Part shown: positions 16,941-37,157 of the stretch, one piece after another | Layout: each line of letters opens with the position of its first letter | How positions within the stretch are numbered: position 1 is the first letter of the stretch | Assembly (NCBI RefSeq): GCF_900107995.1 | Contig: NZ_FNUM01000002.1 | Coordinates: 394,283 to 458,282 of the forward strand | Length of the DNA stretch: 64,000 nt | Source: Alcanivorax sp. DSM 26293 | GTDB lineage: Bacteria; Pseudomonadota; Gammaproteobacteria; Pseudomonadales; Alcanivoracaceae | Direction: 5' to 3' | Translations under genes and position numbers: made by a program | The notes under the pieces: model-generated | What the model saw: the letters and a program-made list of their open reading frames with translations, nothing else | Database searches by the model: none | What the model was told of the DNA's origin: nothing

Positions 16941-18827
16941 TTAAAGGGTGGTCCGACTCAGCAAGTACTCGACCAGTGCCGCACGGCCCTCCTCCGTTGC
17001 CGGGGTTTCATCAGCAACCGATCTCGGGAAGTAGAAAGGATGCGGTGAATTTACAGGATTCCCCATCTCGTCTTCCCCCCGGGCCGGGTTGAACAGGTTA
17101 TTCAATGCCTCTGCCGCATCCTCACCCTTCACCGAACCGTTATGAAGAAACTCATCCTTGTCCGCCAGGCCCAGCAATAGCGGTTTCGAAAAACCTCGCT
17201 GCTGCTGTCGCACGCTGGCATCCAGTACCACCAGGGTGTTGTCGTAATCCGGTGTGGGGCCGGCCAAGGTGGTCTGAACATTACTGAGCGGGTCATCGCG
17301 CTCCAGGAGAACCAGAAGATCGTCTTCATAATCACGGTACAGCGTGGTGATCGACACGATGATGTTGGCCACAGGGTCATTGGGGTTGGGCGTGTGGCAC
17401 GCAGCGCAGTTGGCACCCTCGGGACGGGAATTGCGGAAGATCGCCTCCCCGGCTGCCACCATCTCAGCATCCAGCCCTTGCGGAGCAGCCGGGGATTCCA
17501 ATTGATCCGTGTATGCCTTGAGGGCATCCAGTTTGTCATCGGAGACTCTCACTCCCACCGGACCCGTCGGATCCCCGGCAGCAATCCCCGTGGTTTCGCT
17601 GTCTACCAGCGGCACCTGATCATCCAGCGCCATACCGGAGGAAAGCACACCACTGTCTTCCAGAATTTGCTGATATCGCTGCGTGATTTCGTCACCGACC
17701 GGGCCTGCAAGCACATTCAGGAAGGCCTTGCCCTCATCGGTGAGCAGGCTGGTGGGGTCCAGCGCCACGGTATAGACCAGATTGTTGAAGTCATTCAGGC
17801 GCGCAAAAGATCCACTGTGGCCCCACGGCGCCGCCAGATCCGTGCGGAAGAACGGAGGCACATAGGTCGCGTTGCCAATGCCGTCCGGAGTGGCGTCAAA
17901 CGAAGTCACCGCATAGTAGCGAATACCGGTTTCCTCGTTCACGCCGGTCAGGTATTCCCTGGCAACCTGATTGAGGTCGTCAATGGTGCCATCAGACGGT
18001 ATGCCGGTGAAATCACCATTGCCAATGGTTGCTCCGTCCAGGGCGTCAAACTCAAGCTGCAGTAAAGGCAAATACGCCAAAGGATTCGCGGATGCGGCAA
18101 AGATATTGCCCACATCAATGCCTTCAGCGACGACACCATCCACTTGCACACCCACTGAACCGGGGCCCGCAAAACCGGCCGGAACAACGGAATCATCCGT
18201 TCGTGCGTGGCAAAGGGCACAGGTCACACCGACTTTATCACCCCGTGCCAGATCGAGACTGTCGTTGGCGTTGAAGTCAGCGTCACTCCCCAGCGGTTTT
18301 CGGCTGCCATCCGCGGCGAAGGGAACAACGCCAATGACGGCCCCTTCATTGATCAGCGCGAGAGTCACCTGGGGATTGCTGAGGACCGTATCCTGAGGAT
18401 TGGCTCCGTCTTCTATCATTGCCAGTGCATCCAGCAAGGCGGCAGCTGTTCCAGGACTCAGTGCCTCCACATTGACGTTCAAACCAAGAGACAACGCTGT
18501 CAGCGGGGTTACCTCAGCCTGGGCAATGCCCTGGGGAAGTTGCATGAAATCCGTCCAGAAGCGTTCGTTGCCGAAGGTTTCGAAGCGAAACACCTCCCTG
18601 CCTTCGGAAACCGGATCGTCTCCGACAACAACTTCAACCGGGCGATCCACAAAGCGGGTCGTGTCGTCGCCACCGCAACCGGCCAGCCCCAGTCCGGCGA
18701 GCACAAGAAGGAATGCCGGGACTCCGGGTAAGCGACGGGCAATGGCTGAACGCTCCAACCTTCCCCGCCGCCGCCGCGATCCGGCGGAATGTTTGTTGAA
18801 CCGGCTGTTACTGATGACGCTGACCAT
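16941..18827 (-). CDS. Di-haem c-type cytochrome lipoprotein (peroxidase/MauG/RoxA-like)
   Basis: A 628-residue exported protein. After a long basic start, a signal sequence ends in the lipobox LAGC (Cys51), followed by GG, so it is probably membrane-anchored. Two haem c motifs are present: CALCH (203-207) and CAACH (474-478). Two HxGS blocks (PWGHSGSF and FLHNGSV) resemble the segments around the second haem in cytochrome c peroxidase/MauG/RoxA proteins. A peroxidase or oxygenase role is plausible, but the substrate is unknown. The ATG at 18827 is preferred over 18848 because AGGGAGA lies 6 bp before it. Neither neighbour (miaE, acyltransferase) suggests a pathway. Confidence 0.82.
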   Translation of the reverse strand: MVSVISNSRFNKHSAGSRRRRGRLERSAIARRLPGVPAFLLVLAGLGLAGCGGDDTTRFVDRPVEVVVGDDPVSEGREVFRFETFGNERFWTDFMQLPQGIAQAEVTPLTALSLGLNVNVEALSPGTAAALLDALAMIEDGANPQDTVLSNPQVTLALINEGAVIGVVPFAADGSRKPLGSDADFNANDSLDLARGDKVGVTCALCHARTDDSVVPAGFAGPGSVGVQVDGVVAEGIDVGNIFAASANPLAYLPLLQLEFDALDGATIGNGDFTGIPSDGTIDDLNQVAREYLTGVNEETGIRYYAVTSFDATPDGIGNATYVPPFFRTDLAAPWGHSGSFARLNDFNNLVYTVALDPTSLLTDEGKAFLNVLAGPVGDEITQRYQQILEDSGVLSSGMALDDQVPLVDSETTGIAAGDPTGPVGVRVSDDKLDALKAYTDQLESPAAPQGLDAEMVAAGEAIFRNSRPEGANCAACHTPNPNDPVANIIVSITTLYRDYEDDLLVLLERDDPLSNVQTTLAGPTPDYDNTLVVLDASVRQQQRGFSKPLLLGLADKDEFLHNGSVKGEDAAEALNNLFNPARGEDEMGNPVNSPHPFYFPRSVADETPATEEGRAALVEYLLSRTTL

Positions 18828-19013
18828 GATGTTTCTCCCTACCAACACCGCATGAGATGGATCGACAGTGTTCCTCGGGCAGTGAACATCGGGTCAACCG
18901 CACGTCATGTCACAAAACATGACACGAAGACACACAGAAAATGTTCCGCACTGTGGGGCAGTCGTCGAGAAGAATGCTGCGACCGAGCCTTCTGCCCCTT
19001 ATACTCTGCCGCC

Positions 19014-19922
19014 ATGGGCCGACGAACCAATCCGACAATTCAACGCATCAAGGGTGTGATCGCAGTGTCATTACTGCGACTGATCGCCTGGCTCCCCTAC
19101 GCTGTGAACCGTGCCATCGCCTCCCTGTTCGGTGCGATCCTGGCCCGACTCCCCGGCGAGGCCCGACATGTGTCCCGGATCAATCTCTCCCTCAGCTATC
19201 CCCATTTGAGCGAGGTCCAGCGTCATCATCTGGCCCGGCAATCGCTTCTGGAAAGCGCTCGCAATACCTTCGAGATCGCCCTGTTCTGGCGACGACCGGA
19301 GCAAGGACTGAAACGCATCGTGGCAGTGGACGGTGACGGCCCCCTGCGGCAGGCAGTGGAGGACGGCAAACCGGTGATGATTCTGGCTCCTCACCTGGGA
19401 TGCTGGGAGGTACTTAATTTCTGGCTGGCCACCGAGTTCGGTCTGCATGCCATGTTTGCCCCGTCAGGACTGCCGGAAGTGGATGACCTGATACGCTCCG
19501 GGCGCGAGCACTTCGGCTCTACCATGTACCCCACCACCGCCCGGGGAGTGGCCGGTCTGGTCCGGGCCATGAAGAAAGGGGCGCTCACCGCCATCCTGCC
19601 GGACCAGGTACCGGATCGTCGCAGTGGTCGGCACGCCCCCTTCTTCGGCCAACCTGCCTACACCGGCACCCTGGCCTGCAAGCTGATCCGCCAGACCGGT
19701 GCAGTCACTTTTATGGCCTGGGCTCGCCGTTTACCGAACGGAAAGGGATTCGAGATTCGCGTGCGACCGGCGGACCCGCAGGTGGCTGATGACGATCTGG
19801 ACACTGCTCTCACCGCCATGAACCGCTCCATCGCACACCTGATTGACGAGGAGCCCGCCCAGTATCTGTGGAGCTATAAACGCTTCCGGCGACCGCCCCC
19901 GGGGCACCAGGCCCCCTATTGA
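19014..19922 (+). CDS. LpxL/HtrB-family lysophospholipid or lipid A acyltransferase
   Basis: A 302-residue inner-membrane-associated acyltransferase. An N-terminal hydrophobic helix (about 13-45) is followed by the catalytic HX4E motif His127-LGCW-Glu132 and the later blocks ILPDQVPD and YLWSYKRFRR that are typical of the family. Members transfer secondary acyl chains to lipid A or acyl groups to other lipids. The gene is not beside lpx genes, so the acceptor is uncertain. The frame is open upstream to 18789; the ATG at 19014 gives the usual family N-terminus. It diverges from the cytochrome gene over about 185 bp. Confidence 0.88.
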   Translation: MGRRTNPTIQRIKGVIAVSLLRLIAWLPYAVNRAIASLFGAILARLPGEARHVSRINLSLSYPHLSEVQRHHLARQSLLESARNTFEIALFWRRPEQGLKRIVAVDGDGPLRQAVEDGKPVMILAPHLGCWEVLNFWLATEFGLHAMFAPSGLPEVDDLIRSGREHFGSTMYPTTARGVAGLVRAMKKGALTAILPDQVPDRRSGRHAPFFGQPAYTGTLACKLIRQTGAVTFMAWARRLPNGKGFEIRVRPADPQVADDDLDTALTAMNRSIAHLIDEEPAQYLWSYKRFRRPPPGHQAPY

Positions 19923-25496: not shown

Positions 25497-26063
25497 ATGC
25501 TGAATGACTTGGGGATTCCTGAGCACCTGATCTGGAAGTTGAATGACTTTGACAACCACCAGCGGGCGGTCAATTTCATCAAACAGTTTCAGGATACGCT
25601 GTGCGTATACAGTGCGCCGGTGGAACAGCTCTATACCAATTACGATATTTCCATACCACCGGATGACGATCGCTCACTGGTGATTCTGCCCAATCCCTAT
25701 GCATACCACGATACGTTCAACAGTATTGGGGATCATAGTGTTCACGCCACCGGCATGTATATCGTGCCTGGAGATTTGTTCGGTAAGGAAGGGCTTTTTC
25801 TGACGTTACGGCTACTGAAGTATGGCAAGCGGGTTATCAAACCGGTGCCTCTGAAAGTGGGCCTGTGGGCGCTGATGAAGAAGGAATCCACTACCATCCC
25901 CTTCCTCCCGGTCATCACCAAAGGGGATTTACGGGCCTTTCGCAAGGATTTTCCCTGCCTCCACCTGCATCGTATTCAACCCTCCAGACTGTCTGATCGC
26001 TCGCCCATGGAAATCAAAGCCATACAGCGCGTCATCCGCGACAAGCTGAAGGTGTACATGTAA
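25497..26063 (+). CDS. Protein of unknown function, 188 residues
   Basis: I do not recognise this family. The protein is soluble, without a signal peptide or membrane segment. It is rich in aromatic residues and histidine in the middle (ILPNPYAYHDTF, HSVHATGMYIVPGD) and basic at the C-terminus (IQRVIRDKLKVYM). The ATG at 25497 has no good ribosome site, and the leader contains the AT-rich TAATAATTAATAATGA. Base composition looks less GC-rich than its neighbours, which may mean recent acquisition. It stands alone, divergent from hrpB and convergent with the UndA-like gene. Confidence 0.7.
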   Translation: MLNDLGIPEHLIWKLNDFDNHQRAVNFIKQFQDTLCVYSAPVEQLYTNYDISIPPDDDRSLVILPNPYAYHDTFNSIGDHSVHATGMYIVPGDLFGKEGLFLTLRLLKYGKRVIKPVPLKVGLWALMKKESTTIPFLPVITKGDLRAFRKDFPCLHLHRIQPSRLSDRSPMEIKAIQRVIRDKLKVYM

Positions 26064-26175: not shown

Positions 26176-26910
26176 TCAGTCTGACTGAGCGTAGCAGTGG
26201 TCCAGTGCCAGGACATAGTACTCCAGCCCTTTCACCGCTGCCGCAAAGGCTCTTTCCCGGCTCTGTTGATCGACACAGGTGAGCTTGATGAGCTCCATGG
26301 CCTCGTGGGGATGGGCATCATCGTAGGAGGCGTGGGCTCGCAGCCAGGCCATGGAATGGCGGTTAATGGTGGCCACCCCGTTTTCCTGATAGGCCTGCAT
26401 GCCTTTGACCACGCTCTGGCTCCACTCCCCCGTGGCCCACTCTATGGCCAGATTGGTGGCGGCAATGCCTTCTTCCAGGCTGGCCTGTCTGCCCATGTGC
26501 CAGAGATAATGGTTTACCGCATCCATGGCTGGCGGCGGCGTGACAAACTCCAGCTCTTCCAGAGTAATACCAAAGCCCATGGCCCAGTCCTGATACCAGT
26601 ACGCATGGCGTTGTTCGACCTTGATATTGCTGATCAACCAGTTCTTGCTTTCTTCGTGGCCGGGATACCGGCCTGGCTGGGTCTTGGCCAGATTCAGCCC
26701 CATGTACTTGGGAAAGTTTTCCACCAGCGGATAGAAATTCAGCAAGGCACTGCGGAAACGGGGCAAGCTGAGTGTCCCGGCCCCCATTTCCACAAAGACC
26801 GGATGCTCCACCACCTGATTTTTCAACGGTACCAGATCGTCCCAGAAAGTTTGGGCCCAGGGGCTGTGATCGGTGAGTTCGAGCCCTTTCTTATAATTTG
26901 CGGCGCGCAT
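26176..26910 (-). CDS. Haem-oxygenase-like di-iron oxidase, UndA/TenA-like
   Basis: A 244-residue all-helical protein of the TenA/PqqC/haem-oxygenase fold. Putative iron ligands are Glu99-x2-His102 (IKVEQRHAYW), Glu157 (AIEWATGEW) and His193-x3-Asp197-x2-His200 (HASYDDAHPHEA). This set and spacing match what I recall of UndA, which converts medium-chain fatty acids to terminal alkenes, and of CADD-type oxidases. Thiamin-salvage TenA enzymes use a catalytic Cys instead, which I do not see. A fatty-acid-related oxidase is therefore likelier than thiaminase, but the substrate is unproven. GGAG precedes the ATG. It may be read through from tgpA, which ends 68 bp upstream. Confidence 0.8.
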   Translation of the reverse strand: MRAANYKKGLELTDHSPWAQTFWDDLVPLKNQVVEHPVFVEMGAGTLSLPRFRSALLNFYPLVENFPKYMGLNLAKTQPGRYPGHEESKNWLISNIKVEQRHAYWYQDWAMGFGITLEELEFVTPPPAMDAVNHYLWHMGRQASLEEGIAATNLAIEWATGEWSQSVVKGMQAYQENGVATINRHSMAWLRAHASYDDAHPHEAMELIKLTCVDQQSRERAFAAAVKGLEYYVLALDHCYAQSD

Positions 26911-26978
26911 TTGTCGTTCTCCATAACAACCAGTTATCGCAGCGTTGGATCAGAGAGCTATCCTATACAGATAACACA

Positions 26979-29021
26979 CTAGTCCAATAATTTGTATAAG
27001 CGATTTCGGAGCCTGCGTAAATGACGCCGTTGCTGTTTATTCGGTGGCGAAGCGGGATCGTAGTGGAGCTTCTGGTAGTATTTTGCCCAACTTTGGGCAG
27101 CGCCAGCCGCCTGGGGCCATTGCTCGCTGATCGCATCGCATAGCTGCATGGGGCTCAGGCCGACTACCAGGGGGCGCCCCCGTTCACTGGCCCGTTGATG
27201 TAACCGCCAGTATTCCCGCTCCATCAGCGTCTGTTTTGCCTTGCCGGTTCGCCAAAGCAGAAACAGCGCATAGAGCCCCATCAGCACGCCGACAGAGACA
27301 ATCAGGGCAATGGCAATGCGCGTTGGCGAAACCGCGCCGAGAAGGTCTCCGAGAAATTCGGACTGGAAGACACTGTCGTAGCCCAACACCCAGGTCTGCC
27401 AGCGGAAATCCACATAGTCCATCCACTGGCTGACCAGCGCCAGTACGCCGCCATCCGAGAAACGACGCAGCCCCAGATCATCCAGCAGATCGCTGCCCTC
27501 CTCGCTGTTTTCCAGGGCCTCTCTCAGACCAAACTCAATGCGCTCGGGGGCAACCGCGGCGGTGGGATCCACACGGGTCCACCCTTTGTTTTCAAGCCAG
27601 ATTTCACTCCAGGCATGGGCGTCATACTGGCGCACCAGTAAATGTGAGCCCAGCTCGTTACGCTCACCCCCCTGGTAGCCAACCACCACTCTGGCCGGCA
27701 CCCCTGCAGCGCGCATCAGAAAGGTAAAGCTGGACGCATAGTGCTCACAAAACCCCCGCCGGGTTCGGAATAAAAAATCATCCACCGGATCCATGGCAAG
27801 CCGTGGGGGCCGCAGGGTGTAGTGAAAAGGCTGCTCCCGGAAGTATTGCAGGGCACGCTGGGCGATGCCCTCCGCCGAAGGACTTTCCAGACGCCACTGT
27901 TGCGCCAGGCCACGTGCCTTGACCCCGGCGTCCTCCGGTATCGACAACATCAATTGTCGCTCCAGCCGGGTCAGGTCAATCTCTTCGGCCACGGCAGGCA
28001 CGCTTTCCACGCGATAGGCAAATCGCTCGGAAACCGGCCGGTTGGCCACCAGACGCATATCCTTGGCCAGGGCCACATCGCCATAGATCGGGAAAGGCAC
28101 ATCCAGGCTGAACAACCAGCGCCGCTGGGTGGGTTCCGCGATCACCTGATAGCGGTAACCGGGCAGCCCTGACTCCCGCTGCTCTGCTATCCGCTGGTAC
28201 CAGTCCGGTTTGTTATTGCCTGGCCGGTACAGGTACTGCGATTCCGGGATCCCCTGGGGGATCGCCTGCTGCCAGGTTCGACCGTCATAGTGGCTCAGCG
28301 TCAGGCCCCGCCAGTAACGCTGGCCCCGCGACGGCATCTCTCCCTCAAAGTCCACCCGAAACGCCAGCTCCGCCGACTCCGACAACTCGCTGATCTGTCC
28401 CGGCGACATGCTGTCGCTCATCCCCGTGCGGGCCTTGTCTCCCCCCACCTGCATATTCCATAACGGCGCGACCCGGGGTACCAACAGGAACAGCACCACC
28501 ATCATGGGAATCGCTTGCAAGGTCATCATCGCCGCACGCTTGCCATGTACCCAGCCACTGGCACGGGTATCACTGTGGTTGATCCCGACCAGGCAGGTGG
28601 TAAGGACCATCATGCACAGCAGCACATAGAGAAACATGCCCAGGGTCTGGGAAAACAATAGCGCGGTTGCACAGACAAAATAACCGAGCACAATCACCAC
28701 ATAGGCGTCACGCTGCTGCACCACTTCCAGATACTTCAGCGCGAACAGGCTCACCAGCAGAGCGACCCCGGCTTCGGGCCCGTACAGTCGACCGAAGCTG
28801 AAAAACGTCAGACCGACAGCACCGATCAACAACAGGGAACGCACTATCCGGCCCGGCAGTGTCAGACGTTGATGATCCACCAGCCAGCGGATCAGGATCA
28901 CCAACGCCAGCAAACCGGTCTGCCAGAGAACGCCTTTGACCAGTTGCGGGATGGAGCACAGCACGACAGCCAGAGCCAGCCAGAGTCGGGTATGGGATGG
29001 AACCTGATAGATGCGCGCCAT
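26979..29021 (-). CDS. tgpA: Membrane transglutaminase-like protein TgpA (DUF3488)
   Basis: A 680-residue inner-membrane protein. Several hydrophobic helices occupy about residues 12-190, then a periplasmic region carries a transglutaminase-like core with the triad Cys425 (RRGFCEHYAS), His469 (DAHAWSE) and Asp485 (RVDPTAAV). A last membrane helix lies near 555-575, followed by a short C-terminal DUF4129-like tail. The Pseudomonas homologue is reported as essential with transglutaminase activity. It is the last gene of the moxR-DUF58-tgpA unit, starting 8 bp after the DUF58 gene. Confidence 0.93.
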   Translation of the reverse strand: MARIYQVPSHTRLWLALAVVLCSIPQLVKGVLWQTGLLALVILIRWLVDHQRLTLPGRIVRSLLLIGAVGLTFFSFGRLYGPEAGVALLVSLFALKYLEVVQQRDAYVVIVLGYFVCATALLFSQTLGMFLYVLLCMMVLTTCLVGINHSDTRASGWVHGKRAAMMTLQAIPMMVVLFLLVPRVAPLWNMQVGGDKARTGMSDSMSPGQISELSESAELAFRVDFEGEMPSRGQRYWRGLTLSHYDGRTWQQAIPQGIPESQYLYRPGNNKPDWYQRIAEQRESGLPGYRYQVIAEPTQRRWLFSLDVPFPIYGDVALAKDMRLVANRPVSERFAYRVESVPAVAEEIDLTRLERQLMLSIPEDAGVKARGLAQQWRLESPSAEGIAQRALQYFREQPFHYTLRPPRLAMDPVDDFLFRTRRGFCEHYASSFTFLMRAAGVPARVVVGYQGGERNELGSHLLVRQYDAHAWSEIWLENKGWTRVDPTAAVAPERIEFGLREALENSEEGSDLLDDLGLRRFSDGGVLALVSQWMDYVDFRWQTWVLGYDSVFQSEFLGDLLGAVSPTRIAIALIVSVGVLMGLYALFLLWRTGKAKQTLMEREYWRLHQRASERGRPLVVGLSPMQLCDAISEQWPQAAGAAQSWAKYYQKLHYDPASPPNKQQRRHLRRLRNRLYKLLD

Positions 29022-35055: not shown

Positions 35056-36283
35056 CTTGCTCTCCCCTCGCTTCCGCAACGGTATAGAAAGACCCGAAGA
35101 TTAGCACCTGATCGTCGGCCTGTGCAGCGTTAAGGGCACCCTGCAACGCCTCACGGACACTAGCGTACTGGCGGCAGGATGCCTGCTCCGGCAAGGCAGC
35201 GGCCAGCCTGGTCGCGGGGGCGGCCCTGGCAATCGCAGGCGCGGCCAGATGCCAGCTCACCGGCTGTCCGGTGAAGAGCGCCACCACGTCATCGATCGGC
35301 TTGTCGGCCATCATCCCGAACACCAGGTGTCGCGCCCCCTCACAGTGGGGCAGCATCTGAAGGAAACGCGCAACCGCGGGCAGATTATGGCCCACGTCAA
35401 ACCAGCAGGCACGGCCCTGAATCTGTCGGAATTCACAGCGCCCGAACAGGGTCACTTCAGCCACGGCCTGGCAGTCCGCTGTGTCGACCTGCACCCCCGC
35501 CAGGCTGAGGGCCTGGCAAGCCGTCGCCAGATTATCCCGACCCAGCACTACCCGGTCGGGAAAACCCAGGTCACGCCCATCACAGAGAGTGACTCCCTGC
35601 CGGGCAAGACGGAAATCCCGGCCGGCAAACACCGGCACCGCGGCATACTGTCCTGCCAGCTCCAGCAGGTTTTGCGGCCAGTCTGCCTCACCAAAGACCA
35701 GCGGCTTGCCGGATCGGGCAATCCCGCATTTTTCACCGGCAATGGCTTCCCGGGTCTCACCCAGCCAGTCCTGGTGATCCAGCCCCACCGAGGTGACCAC
35801 CGCCACATCCGGATCGACGATATTGACCGCATCAAGTCGGCCCCCGAGGCCCACCTCCAGCAGTACCAGATCCGCCCCGCTCTGCCGGAACAGCCACAGC
35901 GCCGCCAGGGTACTGAACTCGAAATAGGTCAGGGAAATGTCCTGGCGCGCCTGCTCCACCTGTTCAAACGCTTCACAGAGCTGCTGATCAGACGCCAGAC
36001 CATCAGGCAGGCGAACGCGCTCATTGAAACGATGCAGATGAGGGGAGGTATAAAGACAGACTCTTCGGCCATGACGCTCCGCCAGAACCTGCATCAGGCG
36101 CAGGGTGGAGCCTTTCCCATTGGTGCCAGCCACGGTGATCACCGGCACAGGCATTGTGCTCACCCCGAGACGACTGGCCACCTGGCGAATACGCTCCAGG
36201 CCCAGTTCAATTTCGGTGGGATGCATGGCCTCGATCCGCTCCAGCCAGGCGGCCAGAGCGGATGCGGCAGGATCGTCAGTCAT
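35048..36283 (-). CDS. folC: Dihydrofolate/folylpolyglutamate synthase
   Basis: FolC adds glutamate to dihydropteroate and then to reduced folates. The 411-residue Mur-ligase-fold protein has the P-loop [13 protein letters not shown] near residue 50, the block [14 protein letters not shown], and the second-domain region with FDVGHNLPA. It overlaps accD by 8 bp at its start and dedD by 8 bp at its end, showing translational coupling within the trpF-to-purF operon. Confidence 0.96.
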
Positions 36284-37157
36284 CGACAGTCTGGAGGGAC
36301 CAGCCCATCATGTTCGCCAGCAGGCGATGGAGGGTATCGCGCATATCGTGGCGAGCCACGATCATGTCGATGGCACCATGATCCAAGAGGAACTCGCTAC
36401 GCTGGAAACCTTCAGGCAATTTCTGCCGCACGGTCTGTTCAATGACCCGAGGTCCGGCAAAACCGATCAGGGCATTGGGCTCAGCCACGTTCACATCACC
36501 CAGCATGGCCAGGGACGCGGACACGCCACCATAAACCGGATCGGTGAGTACGGAGATAAACGGCAGACCCGCCTGCCGCAACTTTTCCAGCGCCGCGCTG
36601 GTCTTGGCCATCTGCATCAGGGAGAACAGGGCTTCCTGCATGCGCGCCCCACCGCTGGCGGAAAAACAGACCAGCGGCAGCTTTTGCTCCAGGCATACGT
36701 CTACGGCACGGACAAACCGCTCACCGACCACAGAGCCCATGGAGCCGCCCATGAAGTTGAATTCGAAGGCACAGGCCACCAGGGGTTCCCCGTGCAACGT
36801 CCCTTTCAAGGCTATCAGGGCGTCGTTTTCCTCGGTGGCTTTCTGGGCAGCGACCAGGCGATCCTTGTATTTCTTGGAGTCCTTGAACTTGAGACGATCC
36901 ACCGGGGCCAGTTCCGCTCCGATTTCCGTCTGCACGCCTTCATCGAGAAACAGCTTGAGCCGCCGCCGGGCATTGATGCGCAGGTGATGCTCACACTTCG
37001 GGCAAACATCCATGTTGCGGTCCAGTTCGGGCCGATACACCACCCCGTCGCAGCGTGGGCACTTGCGCCACAACCCCTCGGGAATGCTGTTGCGCCGATT
37101 TTCCTGGGGGCGGCGTACTGCAGGCAGGATTTTTTCCAGCCAGTTGCTGTTGCTCAT
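36276..37157 (-). CDS. accD: Acetyl-CoA carboxylase carboxyltransferase subunit beta
   Basis: AccD forms, with AccA, the carboxyltransferase that makes malonyl-CoA for fatty acid synthesis. The 293-residue protein has the N-terminal four-cysteine zinc ribbon ([11 protein letters not shown] and DVCPKCEHH) and the crotonase-like core with [13 protein letters not shown]. It follows trpA by 12 bp and overlaps folC, the standard trpBA-accD-folC string. Confidence 0.97.

Follow-up and report, generated by a model that had tools for sequence, protein, structure and literature searches.

We studied a stretch of 64,000 nucleotides (the window) from Alcanivorax sp. DSM 26293 (contig NZ_FNUM01000002.1, positions 394,283 to 458,282), and in it a minus-strand gene which an earlier sequence-only reading had described as an UndA-like diiron oxidase, UndA being the Pseudomonas enzyme that makes 1-alkenes from medium-chain fatty acids. 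The gene starts with an ATG and is preceded by a putative ribosome-binding site:

26176..26910, minus strand: predicted UndA-like haem-oxygenase-fold diiron oxidase, 244 aa (Pfam, phmmer, AF2 model and fold searches)
26919..26922, minus strand: putative ribosome-binding site GGAG, 8 nt 5' of the ATG (sequence reading)

A plus-strand open reading frame (ORF) at 26197-26982 overlaps the gene, and we take it for an antisense frame. The gene is present in one copy in its own 3.7-Mb genome. Compared with three relatives (L043, L044 and L048), the query gave ratios of nonsynonymous to synonymous substitution rates (dN/dS) of 0.041, 0.074 and 0.075, which indicates that the protein is maintained; in a fourth comparison, with L047, dS was saturated. 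The protein scored 66.7 bits against Pfam Haem_oxygenas_2 (cut-off 28.9), and both its AF2 model and the fold searches predicted an all-helical haem-oxygenase fold.

The predicted metal site was explored in an alignment (A2) of the query and 68 relatives at 36-94% identity (69 rows). These relatives are the 68 that were aligned among the best 80 of 546 from the named scan, the omitted ones being L046, L080, L082, L084, L086, L089, L103-L105, L116, L117 and L120. Counts by clade over A2 refer to 13 UndA-side and 55 query-side rows, with L106 counted in neither. Seven codons were invariant in their residue in 69/69 rows:

26614..26616, minus strand: E99, predicted iron ligand (UndA E101)
26605..26607, minus strand: H102, predicted iron ligand (UndA H104)
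26440..26442, minus strand: E157, predicted iron ligand (UndA E159)
26332..26334, minus strand: H193, predicted iron ligand (UndA H194)
26320..26322, minus strand: D197, predicted iron ligand (UndA D198 in the numbering of the A2 clade comparison)
26311..26313, minus strand: H200, predicted iron ligand (UndA H201)
26344..26346, minus strand: W189, equivalent of the radical-forming UndA W190

The 3H/3C ligand set (three histidines plus three carboxylates, at the core-helix positions) was complete in the query and in every row, and since the six ligands are invariant throughout, the residue pattern is beyond chance. All six residues stood where the sequence-only reading had placed them, as did the motifs it had listed (VVEH at 33, Y60-P61-x2-E64, IAATN, ATGEWS and YDDAHP). 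The tryptophan corresponds to the residue from which the radical seen on decay of the UndA peroxo intermediate originates (PMC13108848). Membership of the superfamily of haem-oxygenase-like diiron oxidases (HDOs), 3H/3C type, is the best explanation of this pattern, and the protein would be expected to bind iron.

Consistently with the proposed kinship, UndA was the nearest characterised relative both by sequence and by fold, with TenA, PqqC and CADD clearly farther, and phmmer matched the query to the UndA structures 3oql, 4wwj and 6p5q with E values of 1.3e-46 to 4.2e-45. The query has in common with Pseudomonas UndA (PDB 4WWJ, 4WWZ, 4WX0, 6P5Q and 3OQL) the fold, the six ligands and W190, and most of the residues around the ligands are alike (AATN, ATGEW, YDDxHP), whereas the gene neighbours differ. 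In a 37-row tree, unrooted and built with no outgroup, a 100/100 branch separated 24 query-type from 12 UndA-type rows, with L106, a protein from an Acidobacteriota metagenome-assembled genome (MAG), falling between the two clades; the query lay outside the clade of the characterised Pseudomonas UndA. An approximately unbiased (AU) test disfavoured, and did not formally reject, a topology in which the query alone joined the UndA side (p = 0.0757). The query is thus a member of a clade sister to UndA, represented in Alcanivorax, Alloalcanivorax, Acinetobacter and Alkanindiges. Because it sits in this separate clade, the production of medium-chain 1-alkenes is not simply transferable to it from UndA. 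The sequence-only reading is supported as regards the closest relative and the full 3H/3C set; in its stated form it is not supported, given the clade position and, as detailed below, the replaced columns.

Trees with an outgroup were harder to read, because the branches to the outgroup measured 5-9 changes per column and were flagged by the program as unsafe. One of 92 rows, made with a quick method, held UndA, the sister clade and L106 together (66 rows, SH-aLRT 99). In the other, of 60 rows including TenA and PqqC, three TenA-type rows, carried by a branch of length 6, were nested among rows of the sister clade, and this clade did not neighbour UndA. We hold this placement to be long-branch attraction because the sequence and fold searches contradict it; it nevertheless runs counter to a simple picture, and our clade assignment relies on the 37-row tree.

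Taken at face value, the 60-row tree would favour a TenA/THI-4 thiaminase or a PqqC, as would the common fold, a Pfam TENA_THI-4 score of 47 bits on the query (cut-off 22) and the 27.2 bits that an Acinetobacter clade member reached against salvage_TenA (cut-off 130). However, no NCBIfam TenA or PqqC model, salvage_TenA included, matched the query at E 0.001, and TenA appeared in phmmer only at E 0.046 or worse. Of the 13 PF03070 rows that were inspected, not one had the full iron-ligand set: in PqqC-type rows the D197 column held Asp and the H200 column mostly His, and TenA-type rows had mainly acidic residues. The catalytic cysteine of TenA sits in a PCxxxY-type segment; the cysteines of three TenA-type rows aligned beside E157, where the query has none, its only cysteines being at positions 212 and 239, so that the apparent lack of this residue was borne out. 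A TenA or PqqC identity, which shares with the query the fold but neither the TenA cysteine nor the full ligand set, is thus ruled out as far as sequence reaches, and we give it a next to negligible probability. In its own genome, no further protein exceeded the Pfam TENA_THI-4 cut-off.

CADD was the second nearest solved family, by phmmer as well as by fold search, and CADD and NePabS have the HDO fold and ligand set in common with the query, which might point to a self-sacrificing p-aminobenzoate synthase of the CADD/PabS type. The corresponding model, TIGR04305, did give 38.5 bits on the query, but this is far below its cut-off of 200 bits, and the column of the sacrificial Tyr27 of CADD holds F39 in the query and Phe in 55/55 sister-clade rows. 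In view of the low score and the missing tyrosine we rejected this identity as very improbable. Elsewhere in the same genome lies a second haem-oxygenase-like protein (G000:C13:179349-179855, locus L134; 227 aa, Haem_oxygenas_2 108 bits), which was distant from UndA in the 92-row outgroup tree and scored 22.9 bits against the CADD model (cut-off 200).

The sister clade departs from UndA in columns other than those of the metal site, and first of all at the end of the substrate pocket:

26206..26208, minus strand: A235, at the place of UndA F239 (pocket end; alignment A2)

At this column, 54 of the 55 sister-clade rows had Ala and one had Gly, whereas 11 of the 13 UndA-side rows had Phe; since the remaining two carried Ala (L114) and Thr (L107), Phe marks the 11 Pseudomonas rows and not the entire UndA side. 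An invariant Tyr and an invariant Cys, one on each side at a distance of four places, anchor the alignment at A235. In at least 53 of the 55 sister-clade rows, UndA F239, W62, G160, Y156, F/Y57 and M236 were replaced by A235, Y60, W158, L154, A55 and Y232, respectively, and two further clean differences separated the clades in A2 (UndA G61 to F59 and Y233 to L229). F239 is the sole replaced column for which a source describes a pocket residue (PMC6361979); the others may line the pocket. Conservation of pocket residues was a test that the sequence-only reading had named for its proposal; several columns differ, including the one known to be part of the pocket. In UndA, whose native limit is C14 (PMC12344977), the F239A substitution was made to enlarge the pocket, moved the substrates from C14 to C16-C18 and yielded 1-pentadecene and C17 alkenes (PMC6361979). 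An alanine at this place thus suggests a probable preference for longer chains than in UndA.

By analogy with UndA, we propose tentatively, and at slightly less than even confidence, that the protein is a diiron oxidase which uses O2 to convert free fatty acids into 1-alkenes by decarboxylation, and that its alkenes are probably longer than those of UndA. Following the mechanism of UndA (PMC13108848, PMC7670169), a free fatty acid would enter a hydrophobic channel and ligate Fe1 through its carboxylate; O2 would react with the diferrous pair to give a peroxo-diferric intermediate, which would oxidise the substrate at C3-H or at the carboxylate; CO2 and the Cn-1 terminal alkene would be released, and an external reductant would reset the iron. 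The chain preference would probably be C14-C18, instead of the C10-C14 of UndA. The analysis itself shows the gene, its predicted fold, the ligands, the conserved Trp, the clade position and the substitutions; that the query binds iron and decarboxylates, with which chain length and to which product, is predicted from this analogy. The more specific proposal, that Alcanivorax, Alloalcanivorax, Acinetobacter and Alkanindiges carry a natural long-chain UndA branch converting C14-C18 acids into C13-C17 1-alkenes, appears to us somewhat unlikely.

Reports of products from other bacteria bear on this proposal in both directions. In P. aeruginosa, an undA mutant did not make 1-undecene (PMC8246062). 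A trace of 1-undecene came from A. baylyi ADP1 carrying an empty plasmid, and the authors suggested that it may be explained by the reported Acinetobacter UndA homologues (PMC6410514, citing Rui et al. 2014 for these); the Acinetobacter proteins that fell in the sister clade here, which may be the homologues of Rui et al., had 54-61% identity to the query. Cultures of A. baumannii are also listed among 1-undecene emitters (PMC11727074; reviews PMC7111428 and PMC10758372).

Several points weigh against the proposed function. The Acinetobacter reports are weak: E. coli, too, appears as an emitter in the table that names A. baumannii (PMC11727074), A. guillouiae gave no detectable volatiles (PMC10791660), and a clade with a preference for long chains would mainly make products other than 1-undecene. 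The identity between the query and UndA is only about 37%. The changes G160 to W158, Y156 to L154, G61 to F59 and W62 to Y60 could make the cavity smaller or redirect it and so offset A235. None of the genes directly beside the query gene was recognised as one for fatty acids, a thioesterase or a redox partner, and the gene context varies between genera. Finally, HDOs with identical ligands catalyse very different chemistry (PMC13108848, section 4).

This last point, together with the many columns replaced across the clade while the metal ligands stayed frozen and with the 100/100 branch that sets the clade apart from the UndA side, argues for a protein that has the fold and ligands of UndA and carries out another reaction, for instance desaturation or hydroxylation of a fatty acid, or the oxidation of an unrelated small molecule. 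We consider such a change of reaction distinctly possible, but UndA is by far the nearest characterised relative, the equivalent of W190 is retained, and the change at the pocket end matches the direction tolerated by engineered UndA (PMC6361979). Alternatively, the clade could consist of protective diiron proteins against oxidative or desiccation stress, with alkene production being secondary, since a 2026 paper on DtpC, a desiccation tolerance protein of A. baumannii, contains the terms UndA (twice), diiron (five times) and fatty acid decarboxyl- (once) (PMC13232832). That paper may concern the same clade; however, a term search found neither "heme oxygenase-like" nor "TenA" in it, and an invariant ligand set with W189 suits an enzyme. 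We consider a protective role rather improbable. The decarboxylation of fatty acids to 1-alkenes is retained here as the preferred function.

We then considered the surroundings of the gene, of which the nearest upstream neighbour lies on the same strand:

26979..29021, minus strand: TgpA-like transglutaminase, upstream of the UndA-like gene with a 68 bp gap (TgpA_N 261.6 bits, Transglut_core 82.2 bits)

In Alcanivorax/Alloalcanivorax-type loci, the UndA-like gene follows tgpA-like, DUF58 and MoxR genes. A tgpA-type gene lay upstream in 13 of the best 80 of 546 loci, all of this type, and was not found at the other 67, some of which are incomplete. Since this neighbour is limited to such loci, we regard it as a matter of local gene order, not of a shared pathway. 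Among 20 nearby ORFs of the window scanned with NCBIfam (3 of which matched nothing) and among the four closest neighbours, no thiamin gene was found, in agreement with the non-thiamin context proposed earlier. The scanned ORFs were mostly housekeeping genes (glnS, miaE-like, an LpxL-type acyltransferase below cut-off, acnB, hrpB, metZ, purF, cvpA-like, dedD-like, folC, accD, trpABF, truA and asd), and the lipid genes lying closest within the region scanned, the below-cut-off acyltransferase (18789-19922) and accD (36276-37157), belong to other gene blocks. A plus-strand ORF at 25497-26063 (188 aa) adjoins the gene; neither Pfam nor NCBIfam matched it at E 0.001, yet 7 Alcanivorax-type loci carry it at 87-92% identity and L067 at 62%, which makes it a conserved family with no library name. 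Further away, a minus-strand ORF at 16941-18848 (635 aa) had only a weak match to a di-haem cytochrome c peroxidase model (28 bits, cut-off 150).

A divergent diguanylate cyclase gene, counted in 41/80 loci, at first looked like a partner. It started approximately 126-1642 bp from the UndA-like gene in 40/80 loci (L063:8570-9814 and 39 others among L059-L105), mostly of Acinetobacter and other Moraxellaceae and also of Alcanivorax sp. 1008 types (Alcanivoracaceae). The GGEEF motif was present in 41/41 members of this membrane-type family, with Pfam GGDEF checked on 2. In the genome studied here, a 46% homologue of the N-terminal part of the cyclase lies at C12:38357, away from the UndA-like gene; a homologue is present in G015, a genome devoid of the UndA-like gene, and at E 1e-10 the search detected no homologue in G018 or G025, although both carry the UndA-like gene. 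Presence of the cyclase in a genome is thus not tied to the UndA-like gene, and we rejected it as a required partner.

In a sample of 57 related genomes the UndA-like gene was present in 29, all among the 36 of the host family and none among the 21 outside it. An even draw over the order gave matches in 23/390 genomes (15 in the own family and 8, at 38-40% identity, in one other family), and a sample of the class in 4/369, including the own genome, with the other three at 69, 35 and 22%. Acinetobacter carried the gene in 51/119 genomes, and Pseudomonadaceae had a match in 27/148, one apiece. Among the best 80 of 546 relatives, records named Alcanivorax or Alloalcanivorax had 59-94% identity, Acinetobacter, Alkanindiges and Agitococcus 53-61%, and Pseudomonas 38-40%; the highest named identity, 94%, was that of an uncultured Alcanivorax MAG, which had 12/12 queried window genes with their order kept. 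The gene was not found in the same-genus genome G015 of the 57-genome sample (3.1 Mb, one contig); it was also missing from G023 (86% complete) and from 5/5 sampled genomes of genus g4 of the host family. Close relatives at 51-65% occurred in MAGs named Pedobacter, Omnitrophota and Nitrospina (L059, L101 and L104), reflecting either gene transfer or misbinned contigs.

A literature search found no earlier report on UndA or 1-undecene in Alcanivorax, and PMC7181335, which combines UndA with Marinobacter, does not concern the query protein in the excerpts available. The fold and ligand class were known already, and Acinetobacter homologues are in print (PMC6410514); what is new, as far as the searches reach, is that the clade separates cleanly from UndA and naturally carries Ala in place of F239, from which a chain-length prediction follows. 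About a dozen HDOs only have been characterised (PMC13108848, section 4), and UndA is one of the few known enzymes that make terminal alkenes. A sister clade that keeps the metal site of UndA and has alanine at the known chain-length gate thus offers a direct test of the chain-length determinant and, if active, would be a ready catalyst for long-chain 1-alkenes. If the proposed function is true, oil-degrading, wax-storing bacteria would be makers of hydrocarbons as well as hydrocarbon eaters.
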